Shown here: positions 1,309 to 18,929 of the stretch, piece by piece
Position numbering within the stretch: position 1 is the first letter of the stretch
Layout of the letters: every line of letters starts with the position of its first letter
Assembly (NCBI GenBank): GCA_021298285.1
Contig: JAJTFN010000043.1
Coordinates: forward strand, 1-36,992
Origin: Verrucomicrobium sp.
GTDB taxonomy: Bacteria; Verrucomicrobiota; Verrucomicrobiia; Limisphaerales; UBA9464
Length of the DNA stretch: 36,992 nucleotides
Direction of reading: 5' to 3'
The notes under the pieces: model-generated
What the model was told of the DNA's origin: nothing
What the model saw: only the letters and a program-made list of their open reading frames with translations
Database searches by the model: none
Program-made: the position numbers and the translations under genes

Positions 1309-1330
1309 GACGAAAACGGGTTGGCGACGT

Positions 1331-4300: not shown

Positions 4301-5968
4301 GGCCGTCACGTTGGCGGCATCGAGGTAGGTGAAGTTGGCCAGCTCGGGCAGGCCGTTGGAGAACTCCTTGCGCAGCAGCCGGTCGCCGGCCAGTTGCATC
4401 CACGACCGCGCGGTCCACGGCACCAGCGCGGTGGCGCGGGCGGCCGATCCGGCCAGGCCGTTGGTGGTCACCACATTGGCGCTGTGGGGCTGGGCCCCGT
4501 CGGCATCGAGGACCTGGTAGTTGAGGTTCAGCTTGGACCGCCGGAAATAGCGGTTGGCGAGGTCGACCCCGACCTCGATGCGTCCGTCGGAAGCGTCGGT
4601 GCCCAGCGATCCGAGCAACCGGTAGAAGGTGTAGGCGTTGTAGGTGGCGTTGGAGGCCTGCGCCGGGGAGAACAACTGGGCCGCGAAGCCGCTGCGCCGC
4701 GTGTCAAGGTTGGTCCAGATGACCCGGTTGGGCCCGAGGGGCAGGAGGCCAGGGTCGGTGAGCAGCTGGAACGGCGTCAGGTAGGGCCGCGCGACATCAC
4801 CACCCGACCAGAGGCGCGTGACATTGTCGCCATCGGTGAGCAATCGCGGGTTGCGGACCTGGGCCAGGCTCAGCACGAGCGGTCCGTCGGAGAGGTCGTC
4901 GATGCCGTTGGAGGGCAGCACGCGGCCGGCGGCCGCGATGTCGGACGCGCCACCGACCTGCAGGAGGGTGTCGCCGGCGAGGATCTCCTGGGCGGACGCG
5001 CGGCCGGCCAACCCGCCCACGCGCCGGTTGGCCCAGAGGTTGAGGGCATGATCGAAGGCCAGGCCGGAATTGTCGCCGTTCGTCGAGTAGGCGTAAGTCT
5101 GCCAGAGGTTGGTGTTCAGGTCGCGGAACAGGCCGGCCAGGTTCAGCTCCCACGGGGCCACGCCCTGGTTGCGGAAGAACAGGCTGGTGGTGGCCTCGGG
5201 GTTCCGGGCCTGGTTGTGCGCATGGTTGAGGTCGACCGTCTGGTCGGCCGGGACCACGAGGTAGGCGATCCGGTAGAGGAAGCGGTTGTTGCCGGAATGC
5301 GGCCGGTCGGGATCGGACAGCACACCGATCCATTCCGGGTCGCCGACGTGCCACACGCGGTTGGTGCCGATGGCGACGCCGAGACCATTGCGCTGGAGCA
5401 CGAACCCGTTGGTGTCGAAGCGGCCGTTGCGGTTGAGGTCGAGGTAGAAGCGATCCTCAAAGGAATCGGGCCGGGCATCGAGGCGACCCGTCCGCGCGAC
5501 GACCGGCACCCGGGGATCCAGGTACAGGTTGGCGAGCATCCGGCGGTACTCGAGGATCTCCGCCGGGTTGTTCAGGTCGAAGGGCCTGCCGCCGTACAGG
5601 TACGACACGTTGGTCAGGGCCGAGAACCAGCGGTTCGACTGGACGATGGTCTGCGGGTCGCCCAGCCCGGCGACCGAGAGACCGGGAAGGTAGAACGGAG
5701 CGATGAGGTTGGTGGAGACCAGCAGCGTGGGGGCCTCACGCAGCCCGGAGGCCTCGATCTGGGCCAGGATGCGGGCCCGGGCCCGGTTCAGGGCCGCGTC
5801 GGCGGCGATGCGCACGTCGGCCTGCTCGCCGGCGGCCGCGACGGCGGCGCGCTCCCGGCGGGCGACGGCCAGGAAGGCGACCGCCGTGATCGTCACCACC
5901 GAGAGCATGATCAGGGTGATGACCAGCGCCACACCGCGCCGGCTGGATGGGGGGTAGAGTCGTTTCAT
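1331..5968 (-). CDS. Giant exported protein with PilX/GspK-like N-terminus (Verru_Chthon cassette protein A-like)
   Basis: This 1545-residue protein starts with a short basic leader and a hydrophobic helix (residues about 12-35, motif RRGVALVITLIML) of the kind found in PilX and GspK minor pilins. It lacks the Glu+5 of major pilins. The rest looks exported: no further membrane helix and many TN and Asn-rich stretches. A region near residues 245-290 contains VDLNHAHNQARNP and PWELNLAGLF, which resembles what I remember of the Verru_Chthon A family (TIGR02600). Size, order and partners fit that cassette. An upstream in-frame ATG at 6037 would add 23 residues. I prefer 5968 because it overlaps the preceding stop in an ATGA, which suggests translational coupling, and because it puts the helix at the N-terminus. 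Biochemical function is unknown; a tip or adhesin-like component of a pseudopilus is a guess. Confidence 0.75.
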   Translation of the reverse strand: MKRLYPPSSRRGVALVITLIMLSVVTITAVAFLAVARRERAAVAAAGEQADVRIAADAALNRARARILAQIEASGLREAPTLLVSTNLIAPFYLPGLSVAGLGDPQTIVQSNRWFSALTNVSYLYGGRPFDLNNPAEILEYRRMLANLYLDPRVPVVARTGRLDARPDSFEDRFYLDLNRNGRFDTNGFVLQRNGLGVAIGTNRVWHVGDPEWIGVLSDPDRPHSGNNRFLYRIAYLVVPADQTVDLNHAHNQARNPEATTSLFFRNQGVAPWELNLAGLFRDLNTNLWQTYAYSTNGDNSGLAFDHALNLWANRRVGGLAGRASAQEILAGDTLLQVGGASDIAAAGRVLPSNGIDDLSDGPLVLSLAQVRNPRLLTDGDNVTRLWSGGDVARPYLTPFQLLTDPGLLPLGPNRVIWTNLDTRRSGFAAQLFSPAQASNATYNAYTFYRLLGSLGTDASDGRIEVGVDLANRYFRRSKLNLNYQVLDADGAQPHSANVVTTNGLAGSAARATALVPWTARSWMQLAGDRLLRKEFSNGLPELANFTYLDAANVTAREEAAHGIAIAGGHWVTNAVGSRAQAQVVSLTNHTWTAKLHRLLQLSANIHEVRTNLAGGLGTEPFPPHVYRPTFYREDREDPRNPGRRLPVVRLAGLEEVTNAVAQVLNTAWTNWMDFDNPLDVANLSADPRVPTRTNVFGIPFIVGTKQNQTGPNALGLPKFNEAFWQTRVRTGRRLLLERPPNGAVRPTNETTLSALGVVKYGQYTLQIVNQSAVEAWNAYLQAFPANRPLRLIATNWTEVCLYDGSLADAARPLGQPLFIPQPANPSLPWSPQNPMVFNRTNYSVQVGNVVRVGTGNTGFRARWDAQEYLPALNHNAVFGLVYNPVLGRVFPLNETNNPLAMFPMPGTRPDRLVPQLTLAVTNRLVFAIVDDSFVPPRLLDFVNLKSGTVETNLLDNLRYTASGGIPGVAGDAGVNEGFDNIGGNLGGGATSNRPLRMAELWQTNFLAGRVIPLGFENQFSASVNPLRVLQFWEAATLPGVQTTGDPRVDASLGLRAFLYGINSVPRSAQVVARRELDRLLASGGNVNGNRIQVGFNPVGEVQLTERRMANDPFVHYTKEDLQPGGLVYTHPEGYWKFYADVHPERRPSMFQGLQLDPGIAESRVAEASGDFLVTTIYRTNRVAAPYKFINAYAPWGISANLGTGIPTPILAVDMAYKDPLITNSAAWSFPTPTNAFASIGQLGRIHRGTPWQTVYLKSPVANIETDDAGHISDRHHWRWWSGSYGTHPTNDWALLDTFSTALTENAARGQVGVNQTNLAAWSAILSGVPALRRLASDGTNLVATVLDPAGGNGSSYLHRIVSGYTNAQGQAVRGIVSGFVHTNVWPGDPLVEIGVGLDGNPVRQQRPRRSLPRFRSVGEICSVETLSAGSPLLENILPDPNNPDRPFRAVPDEVVERLPQQILSLLKAEEPRYVVYSWAQTLRPAAGAVVTAPGPFFGMATNYVVTGEFATKTVLRFEGALSTNAPVTQTLRPVVEEHRVLTTD

Positions 5969-7176
5969 TGGGGCGCGGTGCGGAGGACGACCCGCTGGCG
6001 GAGGGTCTGGAGGGCGCCGGCGTTGTTCGCCAGCCACCGGTTGCGGGCCTGCAGCGTGTCGGGAAGGGCGCGGAACTGGTCCAGCTGCTTGCCGTCCAGC
6101 AGCGTGATCTCGATCTCGAGGGACGACGGGAGGTTGGGCCCGCGGAACAGGGCGCTCACCTGGCCGGTGTCGGCGTCCACCGACAAGACCTCGATGGGCA
6201 GCGGCCGGGACACGTTGCCAAGCCGGTTGGTGGCCAAGGCCTGCCAGTCGGCCGGGGCGACCGGGAAATGTCGGGGGGAATTGGTGTTCACGCCGACCCT
6301 CGGGAAGAGGACGTCGAAGCGGACCGGGTGGTTTCCGTCAAAGGGCCTGCCATCGGCATCGAAGGCGGTGACACGGCACTGGATGACGCCCTCCAGCAGG
6401 CGGGCGGCGTCGAGGCGGGCCGCGCGGGTCGACGCCGTGGGGTAGGCGGCGGTGGAGAGGCGGGAGGCGATGAGGTTGGTTCTCAGGGCGGGGGCACCGC
6501 TCAGGCGGTAGGGAGAGACCGTGGATGGCGCGGCCAGGCCGCCGTCGAGGAGACCGAGGTTGCCAAGCACCTGCACGAGGTTGGAACTCGGGAGGGCCTC
6601 GTCATAAAGGTAGAGAGAGCCGAGACCGGGAATGGTCCCCGGGGCCACGGGCCCGGCGTCGAGCGTGCCGAGGAAGATCCCGGCCACATGCCAGCGGCCG
6701 CCACCGACCGGGTAGGTGAAGAACAGCTCGTCGAAGCGCAGCGGCTGGGTCCGGTTGGCCGCAGGACCGTCGCCGGGGAAGACCAGGTCGTAGCCGTTGG
6801 CGTCCGACGGGCGGATCACCAGGTGCAGGGCGTCTTCCACCTGGGGAGAGGCCGCCCGCTCCACGCTGCGAACCACCAGATCGAGGGCCGAACGACCGCC
6901 CTCGGACAGATCGGCCTGGTTCAGGCTCTGCCGGAAGGCCTTCTGGGTCTGGTCGAACATCGCATAGAGCGCCAGGATGATGACCGTCAGCAGGCCGACG
7001 GCGATCATCAGCTCCAGGAGCGAGAACGCGGAAGCCAGGCGTCGGGGGCTCCGGCGTCCAGTCGCTCCCGCGATCCCGGCGGGGGCCAGGCCGCGGACCG
7101 GGAGAGCGCGGCGCTCCCCGGCACCGGCCGGGCCGGCGACGCCGGCGGCACCCACCTCGAGAGGGAAAGGCTTCAT
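5965..7176 (-). CDS. Prepilin-like protein (Verru_Chthon cassette protein C-like, GspJ/PilW-type)
   Basis: The protein has 403 residues with a type IV prepilin signal: a 50-residue basic, Gly/Ala-rich leader, then a cleavage site Ala50|Phe51 in SAFSLLELM with Glu at mature position 5, followed by a hydrophobic helix. The size and the long C-terminal domain resemble GspJ/PilW minor pseudopilins and Verru_Chthon protein C (TIGR02599). The leader is unusually long, but no later start precedes the cleavage site, so ATG 7176 is used. The longer upstream frame overlaps the coding part of the previous gene and was rejected. Its stop overlaps the start of the next gene by 4 bases, and it begins 5 bases after the preceding gene, so the three genes are probably translated together. 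Confidence 0.8.
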   Translation of the reverse strand: MKPFPLEVGAAGVAGPAGAGERRALPVRGLAPAGIAGATGRRSPRRLASAFSLLELMIAVGLLTVIILALYAMFDQTQKAFRQSLNQADLSEGGRSALDLVVRSVERAASPQVEDALHLVIRPSDANGYDLVFPGDGPAANRTQPLRFDELFFTYPVGGGRWHVAGIFLGTLDAGPVAPGTIPGLGSLYLYDEALPSSNLVQVLGNLGLLDGGLAAPSTVSPYRLSGAPALRTNLIASRLSTAAYPTASTRAARLDAARLLEGVIQCRVTAFDADGRPFDGNHPVRFDVLFPRVGVNTNSPRHFPVAPADWQALATNRLGNVSRPLPIEVLSVDADTGQVSALFRGPNLPSSLEIEITLLDGKQLDQFRALPDTLQARNRWLANNAGALQTLRQRVVLRTAPQ

Positions 7177-7181
7177 AGGGG

Positions 7182-8081
7182 TCACAGGGAACCCGGCGGG
7201 AACCGGTAGAACAGGACGGCCCCGGGGCCGGGGGTCTCGGTGGCGGGGTTGAACGGGTAGGCGATGTTGCCGAAGTACGCCGGATCCTGGGGCACGTTGC
7301 CCCGCAAGGGCGCCGGCCGGCCGAGCACATCGGTGCGGAACTCCCGGCGGTTGAGGCCCAGCCGGTATTGGTCGGGCTCGGCTCCGGTGCGCTGCAGCGG
7401 CCACTCGAGGATCATCCGGACCTCGGACACCTCCGCACCCGGGCTGCTTCCCGGGCGGGTCACGGTCTCGAGGGTGACCCGGTAGCGGAAGGCGAAGTCG
7501 ATCCGGGGATCGTTGGGGTTGCCCCGGCGCTCATTCCAGCGGATGACCGGGTGCTCGGCCATGGATCCGCTCATCGAGCGCATCTCCAGGCGGACGATGT
7601 TGGTCACGGTGACCGCGGTGCTCCGGCTCGAAGGCGACGGTTCCAGGGTGTACTTGGGGCGGCTGATGAGGCCCACCAGCTGGAAGGCATCTCCGAAGGG
7701 GTCGGAACCGGACGGGGTGCCGGCGACCATCGGTCCGTGGAAGTGGTTGGTCCGCGTGGGCGAACGGTCGCGGTACTGGCGGATCAGGGTCACGCGGTCG
7801 GCGTAGTTGAGCAGCTCCTGGAGACGGGTCTGACCGCCCCGCACGGCGTTGAGCAGCAGCTCGGCATCCTGGGTGAGCAGGGACTCCTCGCGGTTCTGCT
7901 TCTGGACGTTCAACCCCGCCGGCAGCACGCCGATGATCGCCACCATCGCGATGGCCACCACGGCGATGCACAGGGCGATCTCGATGAGCGTGAAGCCCGA
8001 ACCGGGGCGCACCCGACGGGCGGGCCCGATGGGCCGGGGCGAGGTCGGTCCCGGGGGGGCGGATGGGCCGGAGAGTCTCAT
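7182..8081 (-). CDS. Prepilin-like protein (Verru_Chthon cassette protein B-like, GspI/PilV-type)
   Basis: This 299-residue protein carries a 29-residue basic leader and a prepilin peptidase site Gly29|Phe30 (GSGFTLIEI, Glu at +5), then a hydrophobic helix ending in the VLPAGLN segment common in PilV/GspI-like minor pilins. The globular part contains the Verrucomicrobiota-style TN motifs. It corresponds in size and position to Verru_Chthon protein B (TIGR02598). The ATG at 8079-8081 shares one base with the stop of the preceding gene (TGATG), a typical coupling arrangement. The much longer frame upstream is only the shadow of the preceding gene. Likely role: minor subunit of the pseudopilus built by the neighbouring ATPases (inference). 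Confidence 0.82.
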   Translation of the reverse strand: MRLSGPSAPPGPTSPRPIGPARRVRPGSGFTLIEIALCIAVVAIAMVAIIGVLPAGLNVQKQNREESLLTQDAELLLNAVRGGQTRLQELLNYADRVTLIRQYRDRSPTRTNHFHGPMVAGTPSGSDPFGDAFQLVGLISRPKYTLEPSPSSRSTAVTVTNIVRLEMRSMSGSMAEHPVIRWNERRGNPNDPRIDFAFRYRVTLETVTRPGSSPGAEVSEVRMILEWPLQRTGAEPDQYRLGLNRREFRTDVLGRPAPLRGNVPQDPAYFGNIAYPFNPATETPGPGAVLFYRFPPGSL

Positions 8082-8992
8082 CAGGGAAGGGCGGGTTTGA
8101 GGATCCGGGACCGGCCGGTGAGGCTGGAAACGATCACCCGGTTGTTGGTGGCGTTGTCGCGGGGCGTCTCGATGGCGTCGGGCGTCACCGACGGATCGAT
8201 GCGGCCGGCGGCATCGCGGGCGATGAACACGCTGCCCTGCCCCACGCCGAGGGCCAGCTCCGACATGGGGGGCAGCTGGAGGTCGCCCCGGCCGTTGAGC
8301 ACCCAGGCCCGATTCATCTCGTCGAGGGCCAGTCGCCCGTCGGGCCCGAAGGCCACGAAGTGCATGGGGATGGCCGGGAGCGTGTCGCCCGGGAACTCGG
8401 CCAGGGGAAACCGGAACGGGCGCCGCGGAAGCTGATGCAGGGCGAGGTCGCGCCGGTCGGTCGGTCCCAGGGGCGCCGGCAGGAACAACCGGGGCGAGAG
8501 GATGACCCCCTCGGGCAAGGTCTGCCAGCCGGGCCCCAGGTAGCGGGTGTGGCTGCGCCCGGGCTGGGCACCGGTCTCGCGCTCCACCAGCAGCGCGTAC
8601 GAATGGTACACGCCCAGGGCGATGTTGGTGAAGCTGCGCAGCGCCTGTTCGCGGAATCCCTGTGGCGCGAGCTGCCGGCCGACGATCATCGCCTCGACCT
8701 GCGAGTCGAGCTCCGGCCGGGCCACCCAGACGTTGGTGGGCGCGAAGACCACGTACACGGTGGTCCGCAGGCGGAGGGCCTCCTGGCGGGCGCGGTTGAG
8801 GTCGTCGCTGAGCTGCCGGTGCCCGCTGGCCACGGTCTTGCCCTGAACCATCCCGCGGATCGCCGGCACGGTCACGCCGGCCAGGAGCCCGATGACCGCC
8901 ACCACCACCAGGAGCTCGAGCAGCGTGAAGGCCCCGGACCGCCGGCTTGGAGCGGCGGGGTCCGTGCACCCGGGGGATCCTTGGGGCTTCAT
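8081..8992 (-). CDS. Prepilin-like protein (Verru_Chthon cassette protein D-like, GspH-type)
   Basis: A 303-residue protein with a 21-residue leader and the cleavage motif GAFTLLELLVV (Ala21|Phe22, Glu26), followed by a hydrophobic helix and the VASGHRQLSDDLNRARQEA amphipathic stretch. That stretch is typical of GspH/FimT-like pseudopilins. The C-terminal part (about residues 90-303) is longer than in GspH. It fits Verru_Chthon protein D (TIGR02596), whose companions B, C and A follow directly. It starts 58 bases after the stop of the GspG-like gene upstream, with no terminator visible between. The -1 residue is Ala rather than the usual Gly. Confidence 0.82.
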   Translation of the reverse strand: MKPQGSPGCTDPAAPSRRSGAFTLLELLVVVAVIGLLAGVTVPAIRGMVQGKTVASGHRQLSDDLNRARQEALRLRTTVYVVFAPTNVWVARPELDSQVEAMIVGRQLAPQGFREQALRSFTNIALGVYHSYALLVERETGAQPGRSHTRYLGPGWQTLPEGVILSPRLFLPAPLGPTDRRDLALHQLPRRPFRFPLAEFPGDTLPAIPMHFVAFGPDGRLALDEMNRAWVLNGRGDLQLPPMSELALGVGQGSVFIARDAAGRIDPSVTPDAIETPRDNATNNRVIVSSLTGRSRILKPALP

Positions 8993-9050: not shown

Positions 9051-9830
9051 TCACTTCCAGCTGTAGATGTTGTCGCGGTTGTTCGGGTGGTCCTGGTCGG
9101 CCGTGAAATCGGCCTTGCCGTCGGGCCCGAGGGACATCACCAGCGTGTTGCCGGGGATGAACCGGGGCTGGGCCGGGCGGCCCGGTGCCACCAGCGGGAA
9201 GGGGCTCAGGACCCGGCTGTCGTAGTCGAGGTCCAGCACGATGATGTAGGGGTGTCCCCACGGGTCGCGGTACACGCCCAGGTCATCGACGCCGTTGGGC
9301 TGGTTGCGCCCCACGGTCTTGGTGGCCAGATACACCGTGCGCTTGGGGTTCTGGTTGTTGTTCAGGTTGACCGCATCGGCCACCCCACCCTGGATGTCGG
9401 CCACGCTCTGTGCGGTGAGGATGGCGATCACCTCGGAGTTGTTGGCCTCGCGGCCGCTGTTGCCCAGGTCGCGGACCAGCTGGTAGCCCGTCTTGGTGGC
9501 CACGGTCGGCGTGGGCAGCACGCCCTTGGCGTCGGGCGTGTTGGCGTTGCCGAAGATCCAGTCGGGCGCGCCCGCCGGGCGGCCGGGCAGGCCGTGGGCG
9601 TCGCGGGTCCGCTTGGTTGCCGGCAGGCGGGAGTAGTCGGCCTGGTACGAGTTGATCGCGCCCACGATGCCCGTGACCTCGACCTTGGCCTTGGCCGACT
9701 TGGCCTTGGTCGTCGCCGAGGCGATCGCCGGCAGGAGCATCGCCGCCAGGATGCCGATGATGGCGATGACGACGAGGAGTTCGATGAGCGTGAAGGCGGC
9801 GTGGCGCCGGGCGGTCGTTCGGGTCTTCAT
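9051..9830 (-). CDS. GspG-like prepilin-type protein
   Basis: The protein has 259 residues: a 12-residue leader, cleavage motif AAFTLIELLVVIAIIGILA (Ala12|Phe13, Glu17), then the N-terminal helix of a major pseudopilin. The following KVEVTGIVGAINSYQADYSRLP segment is the alpha1-C/loop region typical of GspG-type proteins. The C-terminal part has the YRDPWGHPYIIVLD signature of GspG-like pseudopilins, where the DPWG loop normally sits beside the calcium site. At 259 residues it is longer than classical GspG (about 140). ATG 9830 is used; the upstream extension of the frame is antisense-style noise rich in Arg and Pro. It lies 97 bases after another GspG-like gene. Confidence 0.88.
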   Translation of the reverse strand: MKTRTTARRHAAFTLIELLVVIAIIGILAAMLLPAIASATTKAKSAKAKVEVTGIVGAINSYQADYSRLPATKRTRDAHGLPGRPAGAPDWIFGNANTPDAKGVLPTPTVATKTGYQLVRDLGNSGREANNSEVIAILTAQSVADIQGGVADAVNLNNNQNPKRTVYLATKTVGRNQPNGVDDLGVYRDPWGHPYIIVLDLDYDSRVLSPFPLVAPGRPAQPRFIPGNTLVMSLGPDGKADFTADQDHPNNRDNIYSWK

Positions 9831-9927: not shown

Positions 9928-10713
9928 CTAGTTGGATTCCTTCCAATTGCCGATGACCTTGACGCGGTCGCGGCCGACGGGAATCTCGGCCCACAGGTCG
10001 AAACCGCCCGGATTGTTCGTCGGGTTGGTGGACACGTAGCGCCAGGGGTTGAGCCCCCGGTTGGTGGGCACGGGATGATCGTCGCGGTTGTTGGGCCAGG
10101 CGAAGCCGCTCGAACGCTTGCCCGAGGCGTCGGTGGCGAAGCCGACGGCCAGGACCTCGATGTCGGCGTAGCCGGCGTCGCCGCGCCGGCGGAACACCTC
10201 GGCATACTGGCCTTCCTTGAAGTCGGTGGCGAAGAGCCGGTTGCGCAGCTCGGGGGGCTTGGCGTTCTGGATGCCCTCGCGGCCGAACCACTGCTGGAGC
10301 TCGACCGAGCGGATGCCGTCGCCGTCGTCGGCATCGGCGCGCGGGATGAAGAAGCCGTCGGCCCGGGTGGCGTTGGTGAGGTAGACGCCCGACAACTCGT
10401 AGAAGAGGGGGCTCAGGGCCGGAGTGGAAAGGGTCTGGAACCCCTGCCCCGGAACGGCAACCCGGCGGATGCCGTCGGGCGGATACACCCCGAACCGCGC
10501 CTTGTAGGCCTCGATCAGCGTCACCAGTTGCTGCAGCTCGGCCCGCACCCGCGACTCCTTCATCTTCGTCGCGGCCGCCGGGGCCAATCCGACCACCATG
10601 CCCGCGAGGATGCCGATGATGGACATGACCACCAGCAGCTCCAGCAGGGTGAACGCGGCCCGGCCCCGGGTGGTGACCGGGGTGCGTGGGGACGATGGGC
10701 GGCAGGATCTCAT
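9928..10713 (-). CDS. GspG-like prepilin-type protein
   Basis: This 261-residue protein has a 20-residue Arg/Pro-rich leader and the cleavage site Ala20|Phe21 in AAFTLLELLVVMSIIGILA (Glu25). The region after the helix (VRAELQQLVTLIEAYKARFGVYPPD) is a clear GspG/type II pseudopilin hallmark. Residues about 95-115 read LFYELSGVYLTNATRADGF, a pattern I associate with Verrucomicrobiota GspG paralogues. It is the first prepilin gene after the BrnT-BrnA pair, 34 bases downstream of the antitoxin stop with no obvious terminator between them, so read-through from the toxin-antitoxin promoter is possible. It is probably a major or alternative pseudopilin subunit of the system encoded around it. Confidence 0.88.
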   Translation of the reverse strand: MRSCRPSSPRTPVTTRGRAAFTLLELLVVMSIIGILAGMVVGLAPAAATKMKESRVRAELQQLVTLIEAYKARFGVYPPDGIRRVAVPGQGFQTLSTPALSPLFYELSGVYLTNATRADGFFIPRADADDGDGIRSVELQQWFGREGIQNAKPPELRNRLFATDFKEGQYAEVFRRRGDAGYADIEVLAVGFATDASGKRSSGFAWPNNRDDHPVPTNRGLNPWRYVSTNPTNNPGGFDLWAEIPVGRDRVKVIGNWKESN

Positions 10714-10747
10714 GGGTTCACGCGGGAGCGGCGACTTTCCCGAAGGA

Positions 10748-11029
10748 TCAACGGTCCTTCAATTCCTTTTCCATGCGCTCGCTCAGCCACTGCTTGATCA
10801 TGCTCTGGTAATTGAGGAACCGGGAGCGGGCCAGGCGCTTGATGCGGCTGAGCATCCGGGGATCCATCCGCAGGGTGATGGTGATGGATTCGGACTGCTC
10901 CGAACCCGCGGTGGCCGACAGGTCCATCAGGCGCGGATCGACCTGGTTGTCCGCCCAGAAGTCGGCCTCGGCCTGCTCGCTGTCGAAGAGCGGGACGTCG
11001 TCCCAGGACTGGATGGTCTGCTGGTTCAT
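10748..11029 (-). CDS. brnA: BrnA-like CopG-family antitoxin
   Basis: The 93-residue protein begins with an acidic segment (VPLFDSEQAEADFWADNQVD) that matches the toxin-binding part of CopG-type antitoxins (PF12441). It ends with a ribbon-helix-helix DNA-binding domain, about residues 48-90: the SITITLRMD strand, then RIKRLARSRFLNYQSMIKQWL helices. The family neutralises BrnT RNase toxins and represses its own promoter. It starts 30 bases after the stop of the BrnT-like gene, the toxin-first order usual for brnTA. The ATG at 11029 is the only sensible start. An inverted repeat over the promoter upstream of the toxin could be its operator. Confidence 0.85.
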   Translation of the reverse strand: MNQQTIQSWDDVPLFDSEQAEADFWADNQVDPRLMDLSATAGSEQSESITITLRMDPRMLSRIKRLARSRFLNYQSMIKQWLSERMEKELKDR

Positions 11030-11059
11030 GGAACGCGGGAGCGCGCAGGTCGGCCGGGC

Positions 11060-11347
11060 TCACCCCGCCAGGGCCTGGGTCAGCCGGCGCTGGTAGAAGT
11101 ACGCCTCGGCGTCGGTGAAGGGCCGGGACAGGATGACCCGGATGACCTTGCCGTTGGTCCGGTACACGCTGAAGAGGCCCTGCCCCCCGGCCGATTGGCC
11201 CAGGTTGAAGAACCGGGCCTGCACCCCGAATCGCGGCGAATCGGGCAGCAACCGGATGGCGAAGGGATCCTCGAACGATTCCTCGATCGCCGGGATGGAG
11301 ACCGATCCGTCCAGTTCGAAGGGCAGGTTGTTCCAGTCGAACTCCAT
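11060..11347 (-). CDS. brnT: BrnT-like toxin of a type II toxin-antitoxin system
   Basis: The 95-residue protein opens with MEFDWN and contains the EESFEDPFAIRL, ARFFNLGQ, LFSVYRTNGKVIRVI and LSRPFTDAEAYFYQRR segments. These follow the strand-helix plan of BrnT ribonuclease toxins (PF04365). The canonical motif near the C-terminus usually reads RIISAR; here it is RVILSRP, so the catalytic surface may be modified. A GTG at 11356 would add MGS. I chose the ATG at 11347 because the family begins with ME(F/W) and a G-rich GGGTGGG lies just upstream. The cognate antitoxin follows directly. Alternatively it is a BrnT paralogue that has lost RNase activity; only the family call is supported. Confidence 0.75.
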   Translation of the reverse strand: MEFDWNNLPFELDGSVSIPAIEESFEDPFAIRLLPDSPRFGVQARFFNLGQSAGGQGLFSVYRTNGKVIRVILSRPFTDAEAYFYQRRLTQALAG

Positions 11348-11393
11348 TGAGCCCACCCGTCAGTCCATTCGAGTATGGCCGATGCGCATTCAA

Positions 11394-11414
11394 TGTAACT
11401 ACTTTGTATTTACA
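11394..11414 (-). promoter_or_regulatory. Putative BrnA operator (inverted repeat over the -10 region)
   Basis: Read on the minus strand, arms TGTAAATA and TAGTTACA are inverted repeats with one mismatch, separated by CAAAG. The element overlaps the -10 candidate of the brnT promoter. It is one of the most AT-rich stretches in the region. Ribbon-helix-helix antitoxins typically bind such repeats for autoregulation; binding here is inferred. Confidence 0.5.
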
Positions 11415-11435
11415 CCTGCGCAGCACCCCGGTCAA
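11407..11435 (-). promoter_or_regulatory. Putative sigma70-type promoter of brnTA
   Basis: On the minus strand TTGACC (complement of 11430-11435) and TAAATA (complement of 11407-11412) are separated by exactly 17 bases, and a TG precedes the -10. The predicted start of transcription would be about 50 bases before the brnT ATG. The -35 matches consensus at five of six positions; the -10 is weaker. Confidence 0.5.
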
Positions 11436-11455: not shown

Positions 11456-11485
11456 AAAAAAGGCCATCGGCACCGGCCGATGGCC
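11456..11485 (-). terminator. Rho-independent terminator after the gspF-like gene
   Basis: A perfect 10-base-pair stem (GGCCATCGGC with GCCGATGGCC, 11462-11485) with a four-base loop is followed, in the minus-strand direction, by six T residues (complement of 11456-11461). It begins 20 bases after the stop of the GspF-like gene, so it ends the ATPase/platform operon and separates it from brnTA. Confidence 0.88.
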
Positions 11486-11505
11486 CGGGGAAGGCCCCAG
11501 TCCGC

Positions 11506-12867
11506 CTAGTCGCCACCGCCACCACCGGTGTCACCACCGAGGGTCTCCATCAGCTTGATGAGCGGCAGGAACATCGCGATGACGATGGAACCCACCACCA
11601 CCGCGAGGAACACGATCATGATCGGCTCGAGGAGCGAGGTCATGGCCGAGACGGCGTTGTCGACCTCCTCGTCGTAGTTGTCCGAGATCTTGAGGAGCAT
11701 CTCCGGCAGCGCGCCGGTCTGCTCGCCGACGTCCACCATCGAGACGACCATCGGCGGGAAGACCCCCGACTTCTCCAGGGGCGCCGTGATGGTCTCGCCC
11801 TCCTTGACCGACTCGTGGATGTCGAGCACCGCCTTGGCGACGACCACGTTGCCGGCCGTTTCGCGGACGATGTTCAGCGCCTGGAGGATGGGCACGCCCG
11901 ACTGGACCAGGGTGCCCAGGGTGCGGGTGAACCGCGCGATGGCCACCTTGCTGATGACCGGGCCGAGGGCCGGCATGTGCAGCTTGAACTTGTCGAAGTA
12001 CCAGAGGCCGAGCTTGGTCTTGATGGACACCTTGAAGGCGATGACGAAGATGACGATGCCCCAGACCACCTGGCCCGGGAACGGCATGCCGCCGAAGAAC
12101 CAGTCCGGGAAGATCACCGTGTTGTCCTTCAGGGTCTCGGAGATCTTCAGCACGAAGAGGGTGAACTCCGGCATGCCGGCGTCGCCGCCCAGCAGGTCGG
12201 CGAAGATCATCTTGAACTTCGGCACGACGACGATCATCAGCAGGGCCACGATGCCCACCGCCACGACCATGACCGCGATGGGATAGAACATGGCGGCCAC
12301 GACCTTGCCCTTGATCTTCTCGGCCTTCTCCATGAACTCGGCCAGACGCTTGAGGACGACCTCGAGCACACCGCCCAGCTCGCCCGCCTTCACCATGTTG
12401 ACGAAGAGCCGATTGAAGACCTTGGGGTGCTGGGCCAGGCCCTCGGAAAAGGTCGAGCCGCCCTCGATGGAGAGCGACAGGTCGCTCAGGATCTTCTTGA
12501 GCGTGGGGTTGCGCTCCTGCTTCTCAAGCACGCGCAGTCCGCGCAGCAGCGGGAGACCCGCCTCGACCAGGGTGGCCAGCTGACGGGTGAAGGTGGTGAG
12601 CACCTTGGCCTTCACCTTGCCGCCGAAGCCGGGGATCTTGATGTTGATCTGGCCGGCCCCCTTCTTCTTGCCCTTGCCCGCGGCCGCGCCGCCGGCGCCC
12701 TTGCCACCCTTGGCGTCGGACTTGGGCGGAGCCACCTCGGTCACCTTGGTCGGCAGAAAGCCCATCTCCTTGAGGCGGTTGAGCGCCTCGGCCTGGCTGC
12801 CGACCTCGAGGACACCCTTGGTCTCCTTGCCGCTGCTGTCCATGGCGACGTAGTTGAATTTGGCCAT
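11506..12867 (-). CDS. Type II secretion / type IV pilus inner-membrane platform protein (GspF/PilC family)
   Basis: The 453-residue protein has the GspF/PilC layout. An N-terminal domain starts with FNYVAMDSSGKETKG and includes an EALNRLKEMGFLPTKV segment. Two T2SSF domains follow, each with the family pattern (TFTRQLATLVEAGLPLLRGL and RFTRTLGTLVQSGVPILQAL). Membrane segments lie at about residues 192-220, 265-280 and 414-436. The GEQTG motif near residue 380 is conserved in the family. A Gly/Lys/Ala low-complexity linker at about residues 46-75 and a Gly-rich C-terminus are unusual. A strong Shine-Dalgarno (GAGGAGA) precedes ATG 12867. It is the last gene of the four-gene assembly block and ends at a clear terminator. 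It anchors the pseudopilus assembly machinery in the inner membrane and couples it to the PilB-type ATPases. Confidence 0.94.
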   Translation of the reverse strand: MAKFNYVAMDSSGKETKGVLEVGSQAEALNRLKEMGFLPTKVTEVAPPKSDAKGGKGAGGAAAGKGKKKGAGQINIKIPGFGGKVKAKVLTTFTRQLATLVEAGLPLLRGLRVLEKQERNPTLKKILSDLSLSIEGGSTFSEGLAQHPKVFNRLFVNMVKAGELGGVLEVVLKRLAEFMEKAEKIKGKVVAAMFYPIAVMVVAVGIVALLMIVVVPKFKMIFADLLGGDAGMPEFTLFVLKISETLKDNTVIFPDWFFGGMPFPGQVVWGIVIFVIAFKVSIKTKLGLWYFDKFKLHMPALGPVISKVAIARFTRTLGTLVQSGVPILQALNIVRETAGNVVVAKAVLDIHESVKEGETITAPLEKSGVFPPMVVSMVDVGEQTGALPEMLLKISDNYDEEVDNAVSAMTSLLEPIMIVFLAVVVGSIVIAMFLPLIKLMETLGGDTGGGGGD

Positions 12868-12952: not shown

Positions 12953-14653
12953 TCAGGTGTACTTCAGCACTTCCTCGACGGTGGTCTCGCCGGCGTAGAT
13001 ACCCCGGAGGCCGTCCTCACGCAAGGTCACCATTCCCTGCTCGATGGCCTTCTGCCGGACGACGACGGTCGGCGCGCGGTCGTTGATGAGGTTTCGGATC
13101 GGATCCGAGACGGCCAGCAGCTCGTAGATGCCCTTGCGACCCCGGTAGCCCGTGTCGTTGCAGGTCCCGCAGCCGCGGCCGTAGTAGAAGGTCTTGTCGC
13201 CGATGTCGTGGGCCGAGAGGTTGAGGTTCTGCAGCTGCGACTCGCTCGGCTCGAACGGGGTCCGGCAGGTCGGGCACACCCGGCGTACCAGGCGCTGGGC
13301 CAGCACGGCCAGGAGGGTGGACGAGATGAGGAAGGGCTCGACGCCCATGTCGACCATGCGGGTGACGGCGCCGGCGGCGTCGTTGGTGTGCAGCGTGGAG
13401 AGCACCAGGTGGCCGGTCAGCGAGGCCTGCACGGCGATCTGGGCCGTCTCGAGGTCGCGGATCTCACCCAGCATGATGATGTCGGGGTCCTGGCGGAGGA
13501 ACGCGCGCAGTGCCTTGGCGAAGGTCATGCCCGCACCCTCGTTGACCTGGACCTGCATGATCCCCTCGATGTCGAACTCGACCGGGTCCTCGACCGTCAG
13601 CAGCTTGGTGTCGATCTGGTTGATCTGCCGGAGGCACGAGTAGAGCGTGGTGGTCTTGCCGCAGCCGGTGGGCCCGGTGACCGTGAAGATGCCGTTGGGC
13701 TGGTTGATGGTCTCGATGATGTAGTCGTAGCCGTCCTTGGGCAGGCCCAGGGTGTCGAGCTGCAGCTGCACGGCGCCGCGGTCGAGCACGCGGAGCACCA
13801 CCGACTCGCCGAAGGCCGTGGGCAGGGTCGAGATGCGGAGATCGACCTGCTTGCCCGAGATCACCGTGCTGATGCGCCCGTCCTGCGGGAGCCGTCGCTC
13901 GGAGATGTTCAGGTTGGCCATGATCTTCAGGCGCGAGGTCACCGGCGTCGACAGGTGCCGGGGCGGCGGGGCCATCTCGTAGAGGGCGCCGTCCACGCGG
14001 TAGCGGATCTTGAACTCGTCCTCGAAGGGCTCGAAGTGGATGTCCGAGGCCCGGTCCTGCACGGCCTGCATCAGGACGAGGTTCACGAACTTGACCACCG
14101 GGACGTCGTTGACGGCATCGTCCAGCGAGATGGACATGCCCTTGGGCCCTTCCTCCTTGACCACCTCGCCGTCACCCCCGAGCTCCTTGAGCAGCTGGGC
14201 GTACCCGAGGTCGGCCTGGGCGGGGTAGAACTTCTCGACGCAGGCGGCGATCTCGACGGGGTTGGCCACCACCAGCTGGAGCGTGTGCTTCAGCGAGAAA
14301 CCCAGCTCGTCCATCGTCTGGGGGTTGAGCGGGTCGGCCAGGGCGATCTGCAAGGTGTCGCCGTAGAGGGCCACGGGCACCACCTGATACATGCGGGCCG
14401 TCTCGGTCGGCACGGCGGCGATGGCCTCGGGCGGGATGGTCTCCGGCTCGAGGGTCACCACCATGGTGCCCAGGTGGTCGGCCATGATCTGCAGGATGGA
14501 GTCGAGGTCGAGCAGCCCGTAGTCCTGGAGGATCTGGGTGACCGGCTTGCCGCTGCGCTGCACCTCCTGGGCGATCTCCTCGATCTGGAGGTCGTCAAGC
14601 AGCCCGCGCTCGCGGATGAGCGCGACCAGTGGGTGGGAGATGGCTTCGGGCAT
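12953..14653 (-). CDS. PilB/GspE-family assembly ATPase (copy 1)
   Basis: The 566-residue protein has an N-terminal MshEN/T2SSE_N-like domain (about residues 1-150) followed by the GspE ATPase core. Visible motifs are Walker [11 protein letters not shown] (about 325-334), the Asp box region (VEDPVEF), Walker [11 protein letters not shown] (about 389-398) and the His box (STLHTNDA). A four-Cys zinc site is formed by CPTC (about 458) and CGTC (about 493). ATP hydrolysis drives extrusion of pseudopilin from the membrane. It begins 18 bases after the pilT-like stop, with no clear Shine-Dalgarno, and is followed by the platform protein. Full length and all catalytic motifs are intact. A second, divergent copy lies two genes upstream. 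Whether it serves pilus extension or type II secretion cannot be decided from the sequence. Confidence 0.94.
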
Positions 14654-14671
14654 GGCGTGGGTCGGTCGGGG

Positions 14672-15772
14672 TTACTTGCGGGCCTGGGTCTCGGCGCGGG
14701 AGGCTCGGATCTCCTCCAGTTTCTGGTGGATGGTCATGGGATCCAGCGCCTTGGTCACGACCTCCTCCTCGGAGATCATGCCGGCCTGCCACTTGTCGAG
14801 CAGGAAGCCGTCGAGGGTGACCATGCCGTATTTCGAGCCCGTCTGGATGTCGGACTGGATGCGGAAGGTCTTGTTGTCGCGGATGAGCGCCGCCACCGAC
14901 GGCGTGTTGATCATGATCTCGAAGACGGCCACGCGGCCCGGCTTGTCGATCCGGGGCACGAGCAGCTGGGAGATCACGCCCTGGAGCACCGTGGAAAGCT
15001 GGATGCGGATGGTCTCCTGCTGGTTCTGCGGGAAGGCGTTGACGATACGGTCGATCGTCTTGGCCGCGCCGGTGGTGTGCAGGGTGCCGAAGACCAGGTG
15101 GCCGGTCTCGGCCGCGGTGATCGCCGCCTCCATCGTCTCGAGATCGCGGAGCTCGCCGACCAGGATGATGTCGGGGTCCTGACGCAACGCGCGGCGCAGC
15201 GCCTCGGCGAAGGTGGGCACGTCGACGTTGACCTCCCGCTGCGTCACCACCGCCTTCTTGTGCTTGTGGTAGTACTCGATGGGGTCCTCGATGGTGATGA
15301 TGTGCGCCTCGTCCTTCTCCTCGTTGAGGATGTTGAGGAGCGAGGCCAGCGTCGTGGTCTTGCCCGAGCCGGTCGGGCCCACCACCAGCACCAGGCCGCG
15401 GGGCTTGTTGATGAGCGTCCGGACGCTGCTGGGGATGCCGATCTGCTCCATCGTGAGGAGCTTCGAGGGGATCTGCCGCAGCACGAGGGCGAAGTTTCCC
15501 TTCTCCTTGAAGGCGCTGACGCGGAAGCGGGCCAGCTCGCCGAAGGCGAAGCCGAAGTCCGCGCCGCCCTTCTCGCGGATCTGCTGGATGTGGTCTTCCG
15601 AGGTGATGGAGCGCATCAGCTCCTCGGTGTCCTCGGGGCGCAGCGGCGGGCCGTCGACGCGCTGGAGGATGCCGTGGATGCGGATGACGGGGGGAATGTT
15701 GACCCGGATGTGCAGGTCGGCTCCGCCCTCGGAGACCATCAACTGCAGCAGGTCGGACATCTGGTAGGACAT
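14672..15772 (-). CDS. pilT: Twitching motility / pilus retraction ATPase PilT
   Basis: The 366-residue protein matches PilT in length and motifs. It has an N-terminal PAS-like region ([21 protein letters not shown]), Walker [11 protein letters not shown] (about residues 129-138), Walker [11 protein letters not shown] (about 197-206) and a His box GTLHTTGA. The retraction-specific C-terminal motif reads [10 protein letters not shown] (about 291-300), corresponding to AIRNLIRE in classical PilT, with the conserved LIR core. No zinc-binding Cys pairs are present, which separates it from PilB/GspE. It lies between the two assembly ATPases. A PilT argues for retractable type IV pili rather than a pure type II system. 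ATG 15772 is used; the ATG 12 bases further in is an equally possible start. Confidence 0.94.
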
Positions 15773-15918
15773 GGGGCGTTTCTGGAAAGGGGGTTCGGGA
15801 TCGGTGGGCTGGGGGGCTCTGGGACGGACTCAGCCCGCACGGACACAAGCCGCCGGGGGCGTCACCGCCACCTCGTACAAAGCAACTCCGGGGCCATTCA
15901 TGGTCGCAATCGGTGGGG

Positions 15919-17643
15919 TCAATGCTCGGAAACGGTGGCCCGGACGACCTCGTCCACCGTCGTCACGCCGGCCAGGACCTTGCGCATGCCGTCCTCCCGG
16001 AGGGTGCGCATGCCCATCTCGCGGGCCCGGTTGCGCAGCACGTTGGACGGGACCTTGTCGTAGATCAGCTTCCGGGCCTCGTCGTTGATGTTGAAGATCT
16101 CGAAGAGGCCGAAACGCCCCTTGCAGCCCGTCTTGTTGCACTCGGGGCAGCCCTTGCCCTTCCGGGGGGTGGCCGATGCCACCTGCTCGGGGGTGAAGCC
16201 CAGGCCGGCGATCTCCTGCTCGGTCAGGACGTGGGGCGCGGCGCACTTCTTGCACACCTTGCGGACCAGGCGCTGGGCCATGAGGCAGCGGGCCGACGAG
16301 GCGACCAGGAAGGGTTTCACGCCGATGTCGATCAGACGGGCCACGGCCGACGGGGCGTCGTTGGTGTGCAGCGTGGAGAAGACGAGGTGGCCGGTCAGCG
16401 ACGCGTTGATGGCGATGGTCGCGGTCTCCATGTCGCGGATCTCACCCAGCATGATGACGTTGGGCGACTGGCGGAGCATCGAGCGCAGGGCCGCGGCGAA
16501 GGTGAAGCCGATGTGCTCGTGCACCTGCACCTGGTTGATGCCGGCCAGCATGTACTCGACCGGGTCCTCGACGGTGATGATCTTGCGGTCGGGCCGGTTG
16601 ATGTAGTTGAGGCAGCTGTAGAGCGTCGTCGTCTTGCCCGAGCCGGTCGGGCCGGTGACCAGCAGGATGCCGTCAGGCAGGCTGGTCATGCGCTCGAAGG
16701 TGGCCTGGTCGTCGGCCATGAACCCCAGCTCGGCCAGGCCCAGCCGGAGGCCGGACTTGTCGAGGATACGCATGACGATGGACTCGCCATGCGAGCAGGG
16801 GATGACGTTGACGCGCAGGTCGATGACCTTGCCTCCGACGTTGGTCTGGATGCGGCCGTCCTGCGGGATGCGCTTCTCGGCGATGCTCATCCCCGAGGAG
16901 ATCTTGAGGCGGGCGATGACCGGCGCCTGGAGCCGCTTCGGGATGTCCTTCATCTCGGTCATCATGCCGTCGATGCGGTAGCGCAGGCGGAATCGCTTGC
17001 CCATGGGCTCGAGGTGGATGTCCGAGGCCCGCAGCTTGAAGGCGTCGACGATGATCTGGTTGACCAGGCGGATGATCGGCGCGTCGGCGTCCAGCGCCTC
17101 GCTGTCGGCCCCCACCTCGCCCTTGAGCGCCCCGACCTCGACCTCACCCTCGGTGATGTCCTGGATCATCTTGGCGATCTCGGAGTCGCCGCGACCTCCG
17201 CCGCCGCCCGAGTTGCCGTAGTACTTGTCCAGGGCCGCCTTCAGGTCGTCTTCGCTGGTGACGCGGTACTCGAGGGTCTTGCCGAGGGATACCTGGAGGC
17301 CGTCGATGGCCTCGATGTCGGACGGGTCGGACAGGGCGACGACCACCGTGCCGTCATGGGCGGCGACCGGGACGGCGTTGTACTTGCGGGCCACGTGCCG
17401 GGGGACGGCGTTGATGACCTCGTCGGTGAGCCGGGTCTCCGCGAGGTTGACCATCTCGACGCCGAAGTAGGTCGACTTGGCCATGACGACCAGCGATGCC
17501 TCCAGGCGGCCGGTCTTGACCAGGGTGTCCACCACCCCCTCCCCCGAGGCCTCGGCCTCCGGGCGCACCTCGGCGACGGCCTCCTGGGTCGTCAGACCCA
17601 TGTCGAGCATGGTTTCGAGAAGAAAATCGTCTTTGGCAGCCAC
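15919..17643 (-). CDS. PilB/GspE-family assembly ATPase (copy 2)
   Basis: The 574-residue protein has an N-terminal MshEN-like domain (about 1-145), a Gly-rich hinge (GNSGGGGGRGDSE) and a complete GspE core. Motifs are Walker [11 protein letters not shown] (about 328-338), VEDPVEY, Walker [11 protein letters not shown] (about 394-403), STLHTND, and zinc ligands CKKC (about 461) and CPEC (about 498). It differs from copy 1 across the N-terminal domain and hinge, so this is not a recent duplication. The start is a GTG at 17643, chosen because GAGGA sits four bases before it and no ATG precedes the conserved region. It is the first gene of the block, 60 bases downstream of a promoter candidate and 146 bases before pilT. 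Confidence 0.93.
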   Translation of the reverse strand: MAAKDDFLLETMLDMGLTTQEAVAEVRPEAEASGEGVVDTLVKTGRLEASLVVMAKSTYFGVEMVNLAETRLTDEVINAVPRHVARKYNAVPVAAHDGTVVVALSDPSDIEAIDGLQVSLGKTLEYRVTSEDDLKAALDKYYGNSGGGGGRGDSEIAKMIQDITEGEVEVGALKGEVGADSEALDADAPIIRLVNQIIVDAFKLRASDIHLEPMGKRFRLRYRIDGMMTEMKDIPKRLQAPVIARLKISSGMSIAEKRIPQDGRIQTNVGGKVIDLRVNVIPCSHGESIVMRILDKSGLRLGLAELGFMADDQATFERMTSLPDGILLVTGPTGSGKTTTLYSCLNYINRPDRKIITVEDPVEYMLAGINQVQVHEHIGFTFAAALRSMLRQSPNVIMLGEIRDMETATIAINASLTGHLVFSTLHTNDAPSAVARLIDIGVKPFLVASSARCLMAQRLVRKVCKKCAAPHVLTEQEIAGLGFTPEQVASATPRKGKGCPECNKTGCKGRFGLFEIFNINDEARKLIYDKVPSNVLRNRAREMGMRTLREDGMRKVLAGVTTVDEVVRATVSEH

Positions 17644-18020: not shown

Positions 18021-18929
18021 GTGATCGACATCCACTTCGGCGACAACCTCGAAATCCTCAAGGGGTTTCCCGACGCCTCGTTCGACCTCATCTACATCGA
18101 CCCCCCGTTCAACACCGGCAAGGTCCAGGCCCGGACGCAGATCCAGACCGTCCGGGATGACGAACACGGGGACCGGACCGGCTTCCAGGGCCGCCGTTAC
18201 CGGACGGTGAAGGTCGGGACCAAGGGTTACGCGGACACCTTCTCGGATTATCCGGCGTTCCTCGAGCCCCGCCTGGAGGAGGCCCGGCGGCTTCTCAAGC
18301 CCAACGGCTCGTTCTTCTTCCACATCGACTACCGGGAGGTCCATTACTGCAAGGTGCTGCTGGATGGGATCTTCGGCCGGGAGTCGTTCCTCAACGAGAT
18401 CATCTGGGCCTATGACTACGGGGCCAGGGCCACCCGGCGCTGGTCGCCGAAGCACGACAACATCCTCTGGTACGCCAAGGACCCTGAGAACTACACCTAC
18501 CGCTTCGACGACATCGACCGCATCCCGTACATGGCGCCGGGGTTGGTCGGCCCGGAGAAGGCCGCCCGGGGCAAGACCCCCACGGACACCTGGTGGAACA
18601 CCATCGTCAGCCCGAACGGCAGGGAGAAGACGGGCTACCCCACACAGAAGCCGCTGGCCATCATCAACCGGATCATGCGGGTGCATTCCAACCCCGGGGA
18701 CCGGGTGCTCGATTTCTTCGCGGGCAGCGGCACCATCGGGGAGTCAGCGGAGCGGCTTGGCCGGTCGGCGGTGCTGGTCGACAACAACCCGGAGGCCATC
18801 GGGGTCATGGCCAGGCGCCTCGGCTTCGCCCAACCGCGCTTCCACGGCATCGACGCGCCCCCCATGGCGCCCGCCGGGGACGACGGCGATCTCTTCACCG
18901 CGAAGCCGCCGACCCCTGAGCCGTCCTGA
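18021..18929 (+). CDS. Site-specific DNA methyltransferase, beta class (adenine-N6 or cytosine-N4), solitary
   Basis: The 302-residue protein has motif IV DPPFNTG at residues 27-33 and the SAM-binding motif I DFFAGSGT at 231-238. This is the order that defines beta-class amino-methyltransferases. KTGYPTQKP (about 210-218) is the conserved segment before motif I. The central region (FHIDYREVHYCKVLLDGIFG, IIWAYDYGAR, YMAPGLV) closely resembles, as I remember it, a methyltransferase family common in Actinobacteria. No restriction endonuclease or specificity subunit is next to it, so it appears to be an orphan. The start is GTG 18021; no ATG fits upstream. It is the only plus-strand gene in the first 24 kb, its 3' end overlaps the end of the truncated DUF1501 frame, and short repeats flank its stop. 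Together these are signs of acquisition. Confidence 0.92.
   Translation: MIDIHFGDNLEILKGFPDASFDLIYIDPPFNTGKVQARTQIQTVRDDEHGDRTGFQGRRYRTVKVGTKGYADTFSDYPAFLEPRLEEARRLLKPNGSFFFHIDYREVHYCKVLLDGIFGRESFLNEIIWAYDYGARATRRWSPKHDNILWYAKDPENYTYRFDDIDRIPYMAPGLVGPEKAARGKTPTDTWWNTIVSPNGREKTGYPTQKPLAIINRIMRVHSNPGDRVLDFFAGSGTIGESAERLGRSAVLVDNNPEAIGVMARRLGFAQPRFHGIDAPPMAPAGDDGDLFTAKPPTPEPS

Follow-up and report, generated by a model that had tools for sequence, protein, structure and literature searches.

The window (the whole 36,992-nucleotide stretch of DNA analysed here) carries a pair of genes resembling brnT and brnA at the head of a row of pseudopilin-like genes. This raises the question of whether the pair encodes a working toxin–antitoxin system or serves to control the genes behind it. 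It is debated whether toxin–antitoxin modules of chromosomes ever become domesticated as ordinary gene regulators. The initial annotation had placed a BrnT–BrnA pair between a terminator and the pseudopilin operon, and these coordinates, all on the minus strand, were confirmed.

Gene order and transcription signals of the locus

The features of the locus, with the evidence for each, are as follows.

15919–17643, minus strand: gspE-like gene
14672–15772, minus strand: pilT-like gene
12953–14653, minus strand: gspE-like gene
11506–12867, minus strand: gspF
11461–11486, minus strand: stem of an intrinsic terminator 3′ of gspF, with its T run at 11460–11455 (hairpin scan)
11430–11435, minus strand: -35-like hexamer TTGACC of the putative brnTA/pseudopilin promoter (sequence)
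11373–11414, minus strand: operator-like block TGTAAATACAAAGTAGTTACATTGAATGCGCATCGGCCATAC over a -10-like TAAATA at 11412–11407 (conservation in relatives)
11060–11347, minus strand: brnT-like gene, 95 amino acids, predicted BrnT fold without the Lys-His pair (profiles and AlphaFold2 model)
10748–11029, minus strand: brnA-like gene, 93 amino acids, ribbon-helix-helix, CopG_antitoxin family (profile match)
10714–10747, minus strand: gap of 34 bases between brnA and ppA (terminator, operator and promoter scans all negative)
9928–10713, minus strand: pseudopilin gene ppA, with N-methylation motif (profile matches)
9051–9830, minus strand: pseudopilin gene ppB, GspG-like (profile matches)
8081–8992, minus strand: pseudopilin gene ppC, Verru_Chthon D/GspH-like, under the cut-offs (profile matches)
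7182–8081, minus strand: pseudopilin-like gene ppD (weak N-methylation motif, 20.4 bits versus a cut-off of 21.2)
5965–7176, minus strand: pseudopilin-like gene ppE (weak N-methylation motif, 19.9 bits versus a cut-off of 21.2)
1331–5968, minus strand: gene for a very long protein whose N-terminus resembles Verru_Chthon A (TIGR02600, 22.2 bits versus a cut-off of 332.3; no Pfam match)

The row of pseudopilin-like genes runs on the minus strand from 10713, the first base of the ppA ATG and 34 bases after the brnA stop codon, down to about 1331. The TIGR02600 match of the very long protein covers the first 56 profile positions only. The start of brnT is best placed at 11347, since this ATG is common to the relatives and is, in several of them, immediately preceded by a stop codon. 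The three ATPase genes before gspF are grouped at 12953–17643, one of them PilT-like and two GspE-like, the latter two with MshEN domains, which in other systems bind cyclic di-GMP. An open reading frame on the plus strand (18021–18929), which adjoins the secretion genes, has a DPPF motif and reads like a DNA methyltransferase. An apparent second copy of the locus in the same genome, on contig C16 (G000:C16, locus L003, positions 1–4055), was discarded: these 4055 bases match the window locus at 99.94% in one block over the 3181 bases compared, and the contig was therefore taken as redundant, probably from a strain variant that stayed in the bin, and not as a paralogue.

Upstream of brnT, the hexamer TTGACC (11435–11430) stands 17 nt before TAAATA (11412–11407), and the stretch marked in the initial annotation ends, at 11435, on this hexamer. 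The consensus of the block that overlies the -10-like hexamer is TGTAAATACAATGTAnnnACATTGnATGGGC..TAC. A pattern with 15 fixed letters, GTAAATACANNGTANNNACA, was searched for in 80 brnT upstream regions, namely the window and 79 of the best 80 loci drawn from a genome scan in which 355 stretches were confirmed. It occurred exactly in 59 of the 80 regions and with at most three mismatches in 79, the sole exception being locus L079 (upstream of 5001). At the same threshold, controls gave one match in 400 shuffled regions and one in 80 regions with the pattern reversed. In the best 80 loci, none of 79 regions before ppA and none of 54 before gspF had a site with three mismatches or fewer, the closest approaches having no fewer than five and four mismatches, respectively. 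TTGAC was found within 32 bases 5′ of the operator in 77 of 79 sites of these loci, at hexamer-to-site spacings of 14–17 bases. Sigma-70-like sites followed the same distribution in the best 80 loci: they were present in 61 of 80 regions before brnT versus 12.5 expected, and were not enriched before ppA (2/78, 4.7 expected) or gspF (5/53, 3.9 expected).

At the scale of whole genomes, the operator with at most one mismatch was found in 43 of 59 genomes of the order, and reading by eye placed it just upstream of brnT in 42 of them. Five other sites, each with one mismatch, were seen (one each in G009, G028 and G038, and two in G036), and the reversed control gave one match overall. Five genomes (G032, G036, G041, G045 and G053) have a brnT match with no operator nearby at one mismatch or fewer.

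The gap between brnA and ppA has a median of 34 bp in the best 80 loci, with a terminator-like hairpin in one of 72, and in the window the hairpin scan found no minus-strand terminator in it. This bears out the initial annotation, which had described the gap as free of terminators and had seen no better promoter for the pseudopilin genes. Between gspF and brnT, a terminator-like hairpin was found in 17 of 56 of these loci; that of the window has an 11-pair stem and a T run, in a scan that returned four such sites overall versus 2.2 expected by chance. An inverted repeat of eight pairs at 10742–10760, which spans the brnA stop codon, could influence translation coupling to ppA; it is not a minus-strand terminator, because it has no T run on that strand.

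In the comparison of relatives, the brnTA promoter with its built-in operator-like block is the sole promoter signal found before the pseudopilin genes, and a conserved one. A single transcript of brnT, brnA and the pseudopilin genes from the operator-bearing promoter is the economical reading of these signals. Because the operator and the only promoter signal precede brnT, and the gap behind brnA is without a promoter and nearly without terminators, cis control of the pseudopilin genes by the brnTA promoter appears well supported at the sequence level.

Distribution and inheritance within the order

Conservation of brnTA at this site in relatives, raised in the initial annotation, was borne out. 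The gene order brnT-brnA-ppA is kept in all of the best 80 loci as far as their contigs extend: brnA follows brnT in 79, and by the rule used ppA follows brnA in 77, the three departures being a ppA that overlaps brnA (L092) and two loci that run off their contigs (L080 and L093). The labels of these loci are mostly Verrucomicrobia, Verrucomicrobiales, Limisphaerales, Pedosphaera or 'subdivision 3', and the remainder comprises seven Akkermansia muciniphila, two only 'bacterium' and one Omnitrophota, all being unverified labels of metagenome bins. Gene gspF lies upstream of the pair in 56 of the best 80 loci and is absent from 19 with more than 1.5 kb upstream, five being too short to tell. Since the order was held in the 19 loci without an upstream gspF, the pair belongs with the pseudopilins and not with gspF.

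The brnT-like gene is present as a single copy in 47 of 59 genomes, a count that includes the window's genome with its redundant contig, and in 36 of the 39 good ones. Median dN/dS values at genus level (10 sequences) were 0.076 for brnT, brnA and ppA alike and 0.058 for gspF, and protein distances tracked those of gspF (Mantel r of 0.62 for brnT and 0.73 for brnA, n = 50). This comparison shows brnT and brnA as slowly evolving genes under purifying selection. Such a pattern bears directly on the notion that an ordinary mobile BrnTA addiction module was inserted by chance before the operon. The family resemblance to BrnTA speaks for it; the distribution already contradicts it, in that the pair occupies the same place in 80 of the best 80 loci as contigs allow, is single-copy and has distances that track gspF, and a search of a plasmid collection gave no match. 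We regard this explanation as very improbable.

Twelve genomes, G011 and G043 among them, lacked a brnT match, and the relevant contigs were read in the other ten. Two of these, G037 and G054, lack the pair cleanly: their pseudopilin genes come directly after gspF, across gaps of about 159 and 331 bp that showed no brnTA and no operator half-sites of the type looked for; gspF of G054 has a partial repeat of its 3′ end. In the remainder, brnA lies at the contig end (G031), contigs end inside the first pseudopilin genes (G005, G012 and G052), gspF and 1.4 kb beyond it contain neither the pair nor pseudopilins (G046), a gspE-like gene follows gspF (G057), the contig carries a gspF paralogue (G019), or ppB and ppC are present without the pair and without ppA (G050). 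Because G037 and G054 run pseudopilin genes behind gspF with neither pair nor operator, the pair is dispensable.

These two genomes also lend weight to the idea that the pair regulates itself only, that the pseudopilin genes have a promoter of their own and that the adjacency is historical. Against this stand the 78–79 regions before ppA of the best 80 loci without promoter or operator signal, the short gap with its single hairpin in 72 loci, and the persistence of the adjacency even where gspF is elsewhere, and we judge self-regulation alone to be quite unlikely. The reading that we favour, and consider probable on this comparative evidence, is that the pair derives from a BrnT/BrnA module and is now a regulator dedicated to the pseudopilin operon and passed on vertically.

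The BrnT-like and BrnA-like proteins

The family labels given by the initial annotation held in part. A BrnT fold and a ribbon-helix-helix partner were recovered; the BrnT-like protein scored well under the Pfam cut-off (PF04365, 21.3 bits versus a gathering cut-off of 34.5) and ppA scored under the GspG cut-off (32.7 versus 88.85 bits), as it did under that of GspH (34.3 versus 80 bits). Among 73 relatives of the BrnT-like protein, 51 match PF04365 at E ≤ 0.01. An AlphaFold2 model built from a 73-row alignment reached a pLDDT of 80.8, an earlier model having been poor (pLDDT 59). Its best structural match was 7vd7_A, a Salmonella toxin (Foldseek E 0.022, probability 1.00), which superposed with Z 10.5 and 2.4 Å over 84 residues at 23% identity. 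The second was Brucella BrnT, 3u97 (Foldseek E 0.16, probability 0.93, Z 6.8), followed at lower Z by a CdiA toxin domain and toxins of the RelE superfamily; none of the Foldseek matches of the model had an E-value below 0.001. A profile–profile comparison against seven BrnT proteins gave a probability of 95.2 over 71 columns, and a sequence search of the PDB with the first BrnT profile returned chance matches only. The structural matches and the profile comparison led us to take the protein as a BrnT homologue.

According to passages in two papers (PMC10714953 and PMC13284704), a Lys and a His at the N-x-x-K-H place matter for the toxicity of BrnT-type toxins, and an Arg and a Glu are likewise named. 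The Lys-His pair is kept in none of 81 sequences of the BrnT-like family and in none of 19 distant relatives, the segment that holds it in canonical BrnT is 4–5 residues shorter in the family, and 62 of the 81 proteins have no histidine anywhere. Residues E22-F29, R45, R63, N65-G66, R75 and E81 are invariant across 73 BrnT-like sequences, and R75 and E81 are, from the alignment, probably the counterparts of the Arg and Glu named in both papers.

BrnT proteins scoring over the Pfam cut-off were found in 8 of 57 genomes of the order. Lys-His is kept in six of nine such places (L197–L200, L204 and L213), and the remaining three have Lys-Tyr (L201), Lys-Gln (L202) or neither residue (L203); this count includes all nine, and the canonical BrnT alignment, A4, left out L203 (neither residue), L200 and L204. 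One of the nine, L204 (G364:C37), is a canonical BrnT remnant with in-frame stops, that is, a decaying ordinary copy beside the conserved family. L164, which comes from another taxonomic class, keeps Lys-His.

The initial annotation had assumed a working toxin, and this part was not supported: the Lys-His pair is lost in every family member examined, and the distribution is near-core. A still active toxin–antitoxin pair that employs other active-site residues, for example Arg and Tyr as in RelE, and couples growth arrest to pseudopilus production would fit with R45, R63, R70, R75, E81 and Y85 being invariant or nearly so in a RelE-superfamily fold, with the likely correspondence of R75 and E81 to residues named in PMC10714953 and PMC13284704, and with three of the nine over-cut-off BrnT proteins of the order being likewise without Lys-His. 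With Arg, Glu and Tyr conserved, RNase chemistry would still be conceivable. We nevertheless hold an active toxin to be rather unlikely, because the toxicity-linked Lys and His are missing family-wide from a shortened segment and because inheritance is vertical and near-core, which is unusual for addiction modules.

The best match of the BrnA-like protein was PF12441, CopG_antitoxin (40.7 bits versus a gathering cut-off of 28), over nearly its full length, and all 13 members of alignment A3 matched this family at E ≤ 0.001. It scored under the cut-off of the NCBIfam equivalog for BrnA, NF047399 (24.5 versus 60 bits), and a BrnA profile search of the PDB gave no match. Strand residues T50, T52 and R54 are identical in all 13 aligned BrnA-like sequences, six of them from outside the order. 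By analogy with the ribbon-helix-helix fold these residues would contact DNA, and the domain is, judging from the sequence, intact.

On the reading that the pair is a dedicated regulator, BrnA, probably in complex with the BrnT-like protein, would bind the block at 11373–11414 and repress brnT, brnA and the pseudopilin genes as one transcript. For the altered BrnT, a role as partner or co-repressor is proposed, in which sensing of the ratio between both proteins would set the pseudopilin dose, for which the conditional cooperativity of toxin–antitoxin operons is a model. Complex formation or ratio sensing is likelier than RNA cleavage, since the fold and the invariant residues are kept and Lys-His is lost. 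Stress-driven release of repression, also put forward by the initial annotation, is not well supported. In a cultured verrucomicrobium, a pseudopilin is among the genes over-expressed on alginate, according to passages of PMC13274419 that do not concern BrnT, and pseudopilin-type genes can therefore respond to substrate.

Sister families and comparison with known systems

A brnT-like profile run across 288 genomes of the phylum matched in 31, the window's genome among them, and 20 neighbourhoods beyond the order were read. One of these, L148 in another class, has brnT, brnA and pseudopilins in this order, with an operator-like site at three mismatches, and L164 holds a canonical-like pair. In 18 loci of families f26, f31 and f35 (L145–L147 and L149–L163) the pair lies away from pseudopilins; the gene 3′ of it is VanZ-like in eight and miaA-like in two, as judged in each case from a tested member, and a glyoxalase-like gene is seen upstream of it in some. 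Within 1 kb before the unlinked brnT genes, the best operator match had 4–7 mismatches. Being kept away from pseudopilins and without an operator near brnT, the pair may have another role in these families.

Verru_Chthon-A-like genes are numerous in these genomes, and pseudopilin cassettes are strikingly amplified in two of them, G275 and G124, with 19 and 22 Verru_Chthon-A matches, some of them pieces of one gene, and about 18 and 15 N-termini, respectively. In 19 genomes, the operator at two mismatches or fewer gave 49 forward and reverse matches, barely above the 37 obtained with the reversed pattern, so that most of these sites are due to chance. Merging by hand, with G062 set aside, left 43 places in 18 genomes. 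Four of them, in G292, G124, G275 and G272, lie within about 260 bp upstream of Verru_Chthon-A-like genes versus 0.015 expected in 300 bp windows (P = 2e-9, or 2e-5 if sites were ten times denser there).

Regions upstream of cassettes were then scored for 60 of 108 hand-counted cassette N-termini, including one from G293, a genome with a canonical-like pair; most TIGR02600 matches in families f26 and f35 and in the controls are weak and confined to the N-terminus. Sites with at most three mismatches were found in 9 of the 60 regions versus 4 of 300 shuffles and 2 of 60 with the reversed pattern. A weight matrix built from 78 sites of the order exceeded the 99th percentile of dinucleotide shuffles in 18 of the 60 regions, in 13 of 18 genomes, with 0.6 expected. 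In six genomes devoid of the pair this was seen in 1 of 40 regions versus 19 of 61 in genomes with it (Fisher p = 2.4e-4), the 61st region, L217, having been added later from the operator scan itself. Absence of the pair from the controls was checked in one search that matched none of six controls and six of six positives. A rank test over all operator scores showed no overall shift between genomes with and without the pair (p = 0.34), and at most a subset of cassettes would therefore carry sites.

Combined, these data provide a lead, or a hint, that some Verru_Chthon pseudopilin cassettes of sister families may be under trans control by the pair. A broader reading would make the disarmed pair a dedicated, clade-wide regulator of pseudopilin cassettes in Verrucomicrobiota, which in the order of the window would act in cis from the head of one cassette and in sister families would reach some of the amplified cassettes in trans, with the former toxin as the partner tuning repression; this is offered tentatively, at somewhat below even confidence.

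In titles and abstract openings of the literature, nothing was found that links BrnT or BrnA to pseudopilins or describes the BrnT-like family, nor any account of pseudopilin-cassette control. The parts of the locus are of known kinds, and the combination was not found in print. It is a candidate case of domestication that is kept order-wide: the toxin-like half has lost key residues, the DNA-binding half is intact, and a strongly conserved operator-like block marks the likely target. The reading predicts the binding site to the base and names pseudopilin production as the regulated function, in a group where some bacteria carry many pseudopilin cassettes.

Like the Verru_Chthon cassette (TIGR02596–TIGR02600), the gene row combines pilin-like proteins with one very long Verru_Chthon-A-like protein; unlike it, the proteins of the window score under the cut-offs of these profiles, and to our knowledge the definition of that cassette does not include brnTA. 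The BrnA-like protein passes the cut-off of PF12441 and falls under that of NF047399. The closest solved structure to the BrnT-like model belongs to the Salmonella complex 7vd7, whose toxin has a canonical KHG motif in an intact Lys-His segment, which the BrnT-like family has lost. Since this defining feature is missing, the pair is not classed as a BrnTA toxin–antitoxin system, although its function may resemble that of the regulatory half of such a system. The pair shares with the BrnT–BrnA system of Brucella abortus (PF04365; PDB 3u97) the toxin-first order, the BrnT fold and a ribbon-helix-helix partner. In the Brucella system, the antitoxin is reported to bind its own promoter; the candidate counterpart here is an operator-like block. 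Unlike the Brucella system, the pair of the window has a shortened segment that has lost Lys-His and a sub-cut-off Pfam score, is near-core and heads a pseudopilin operon.
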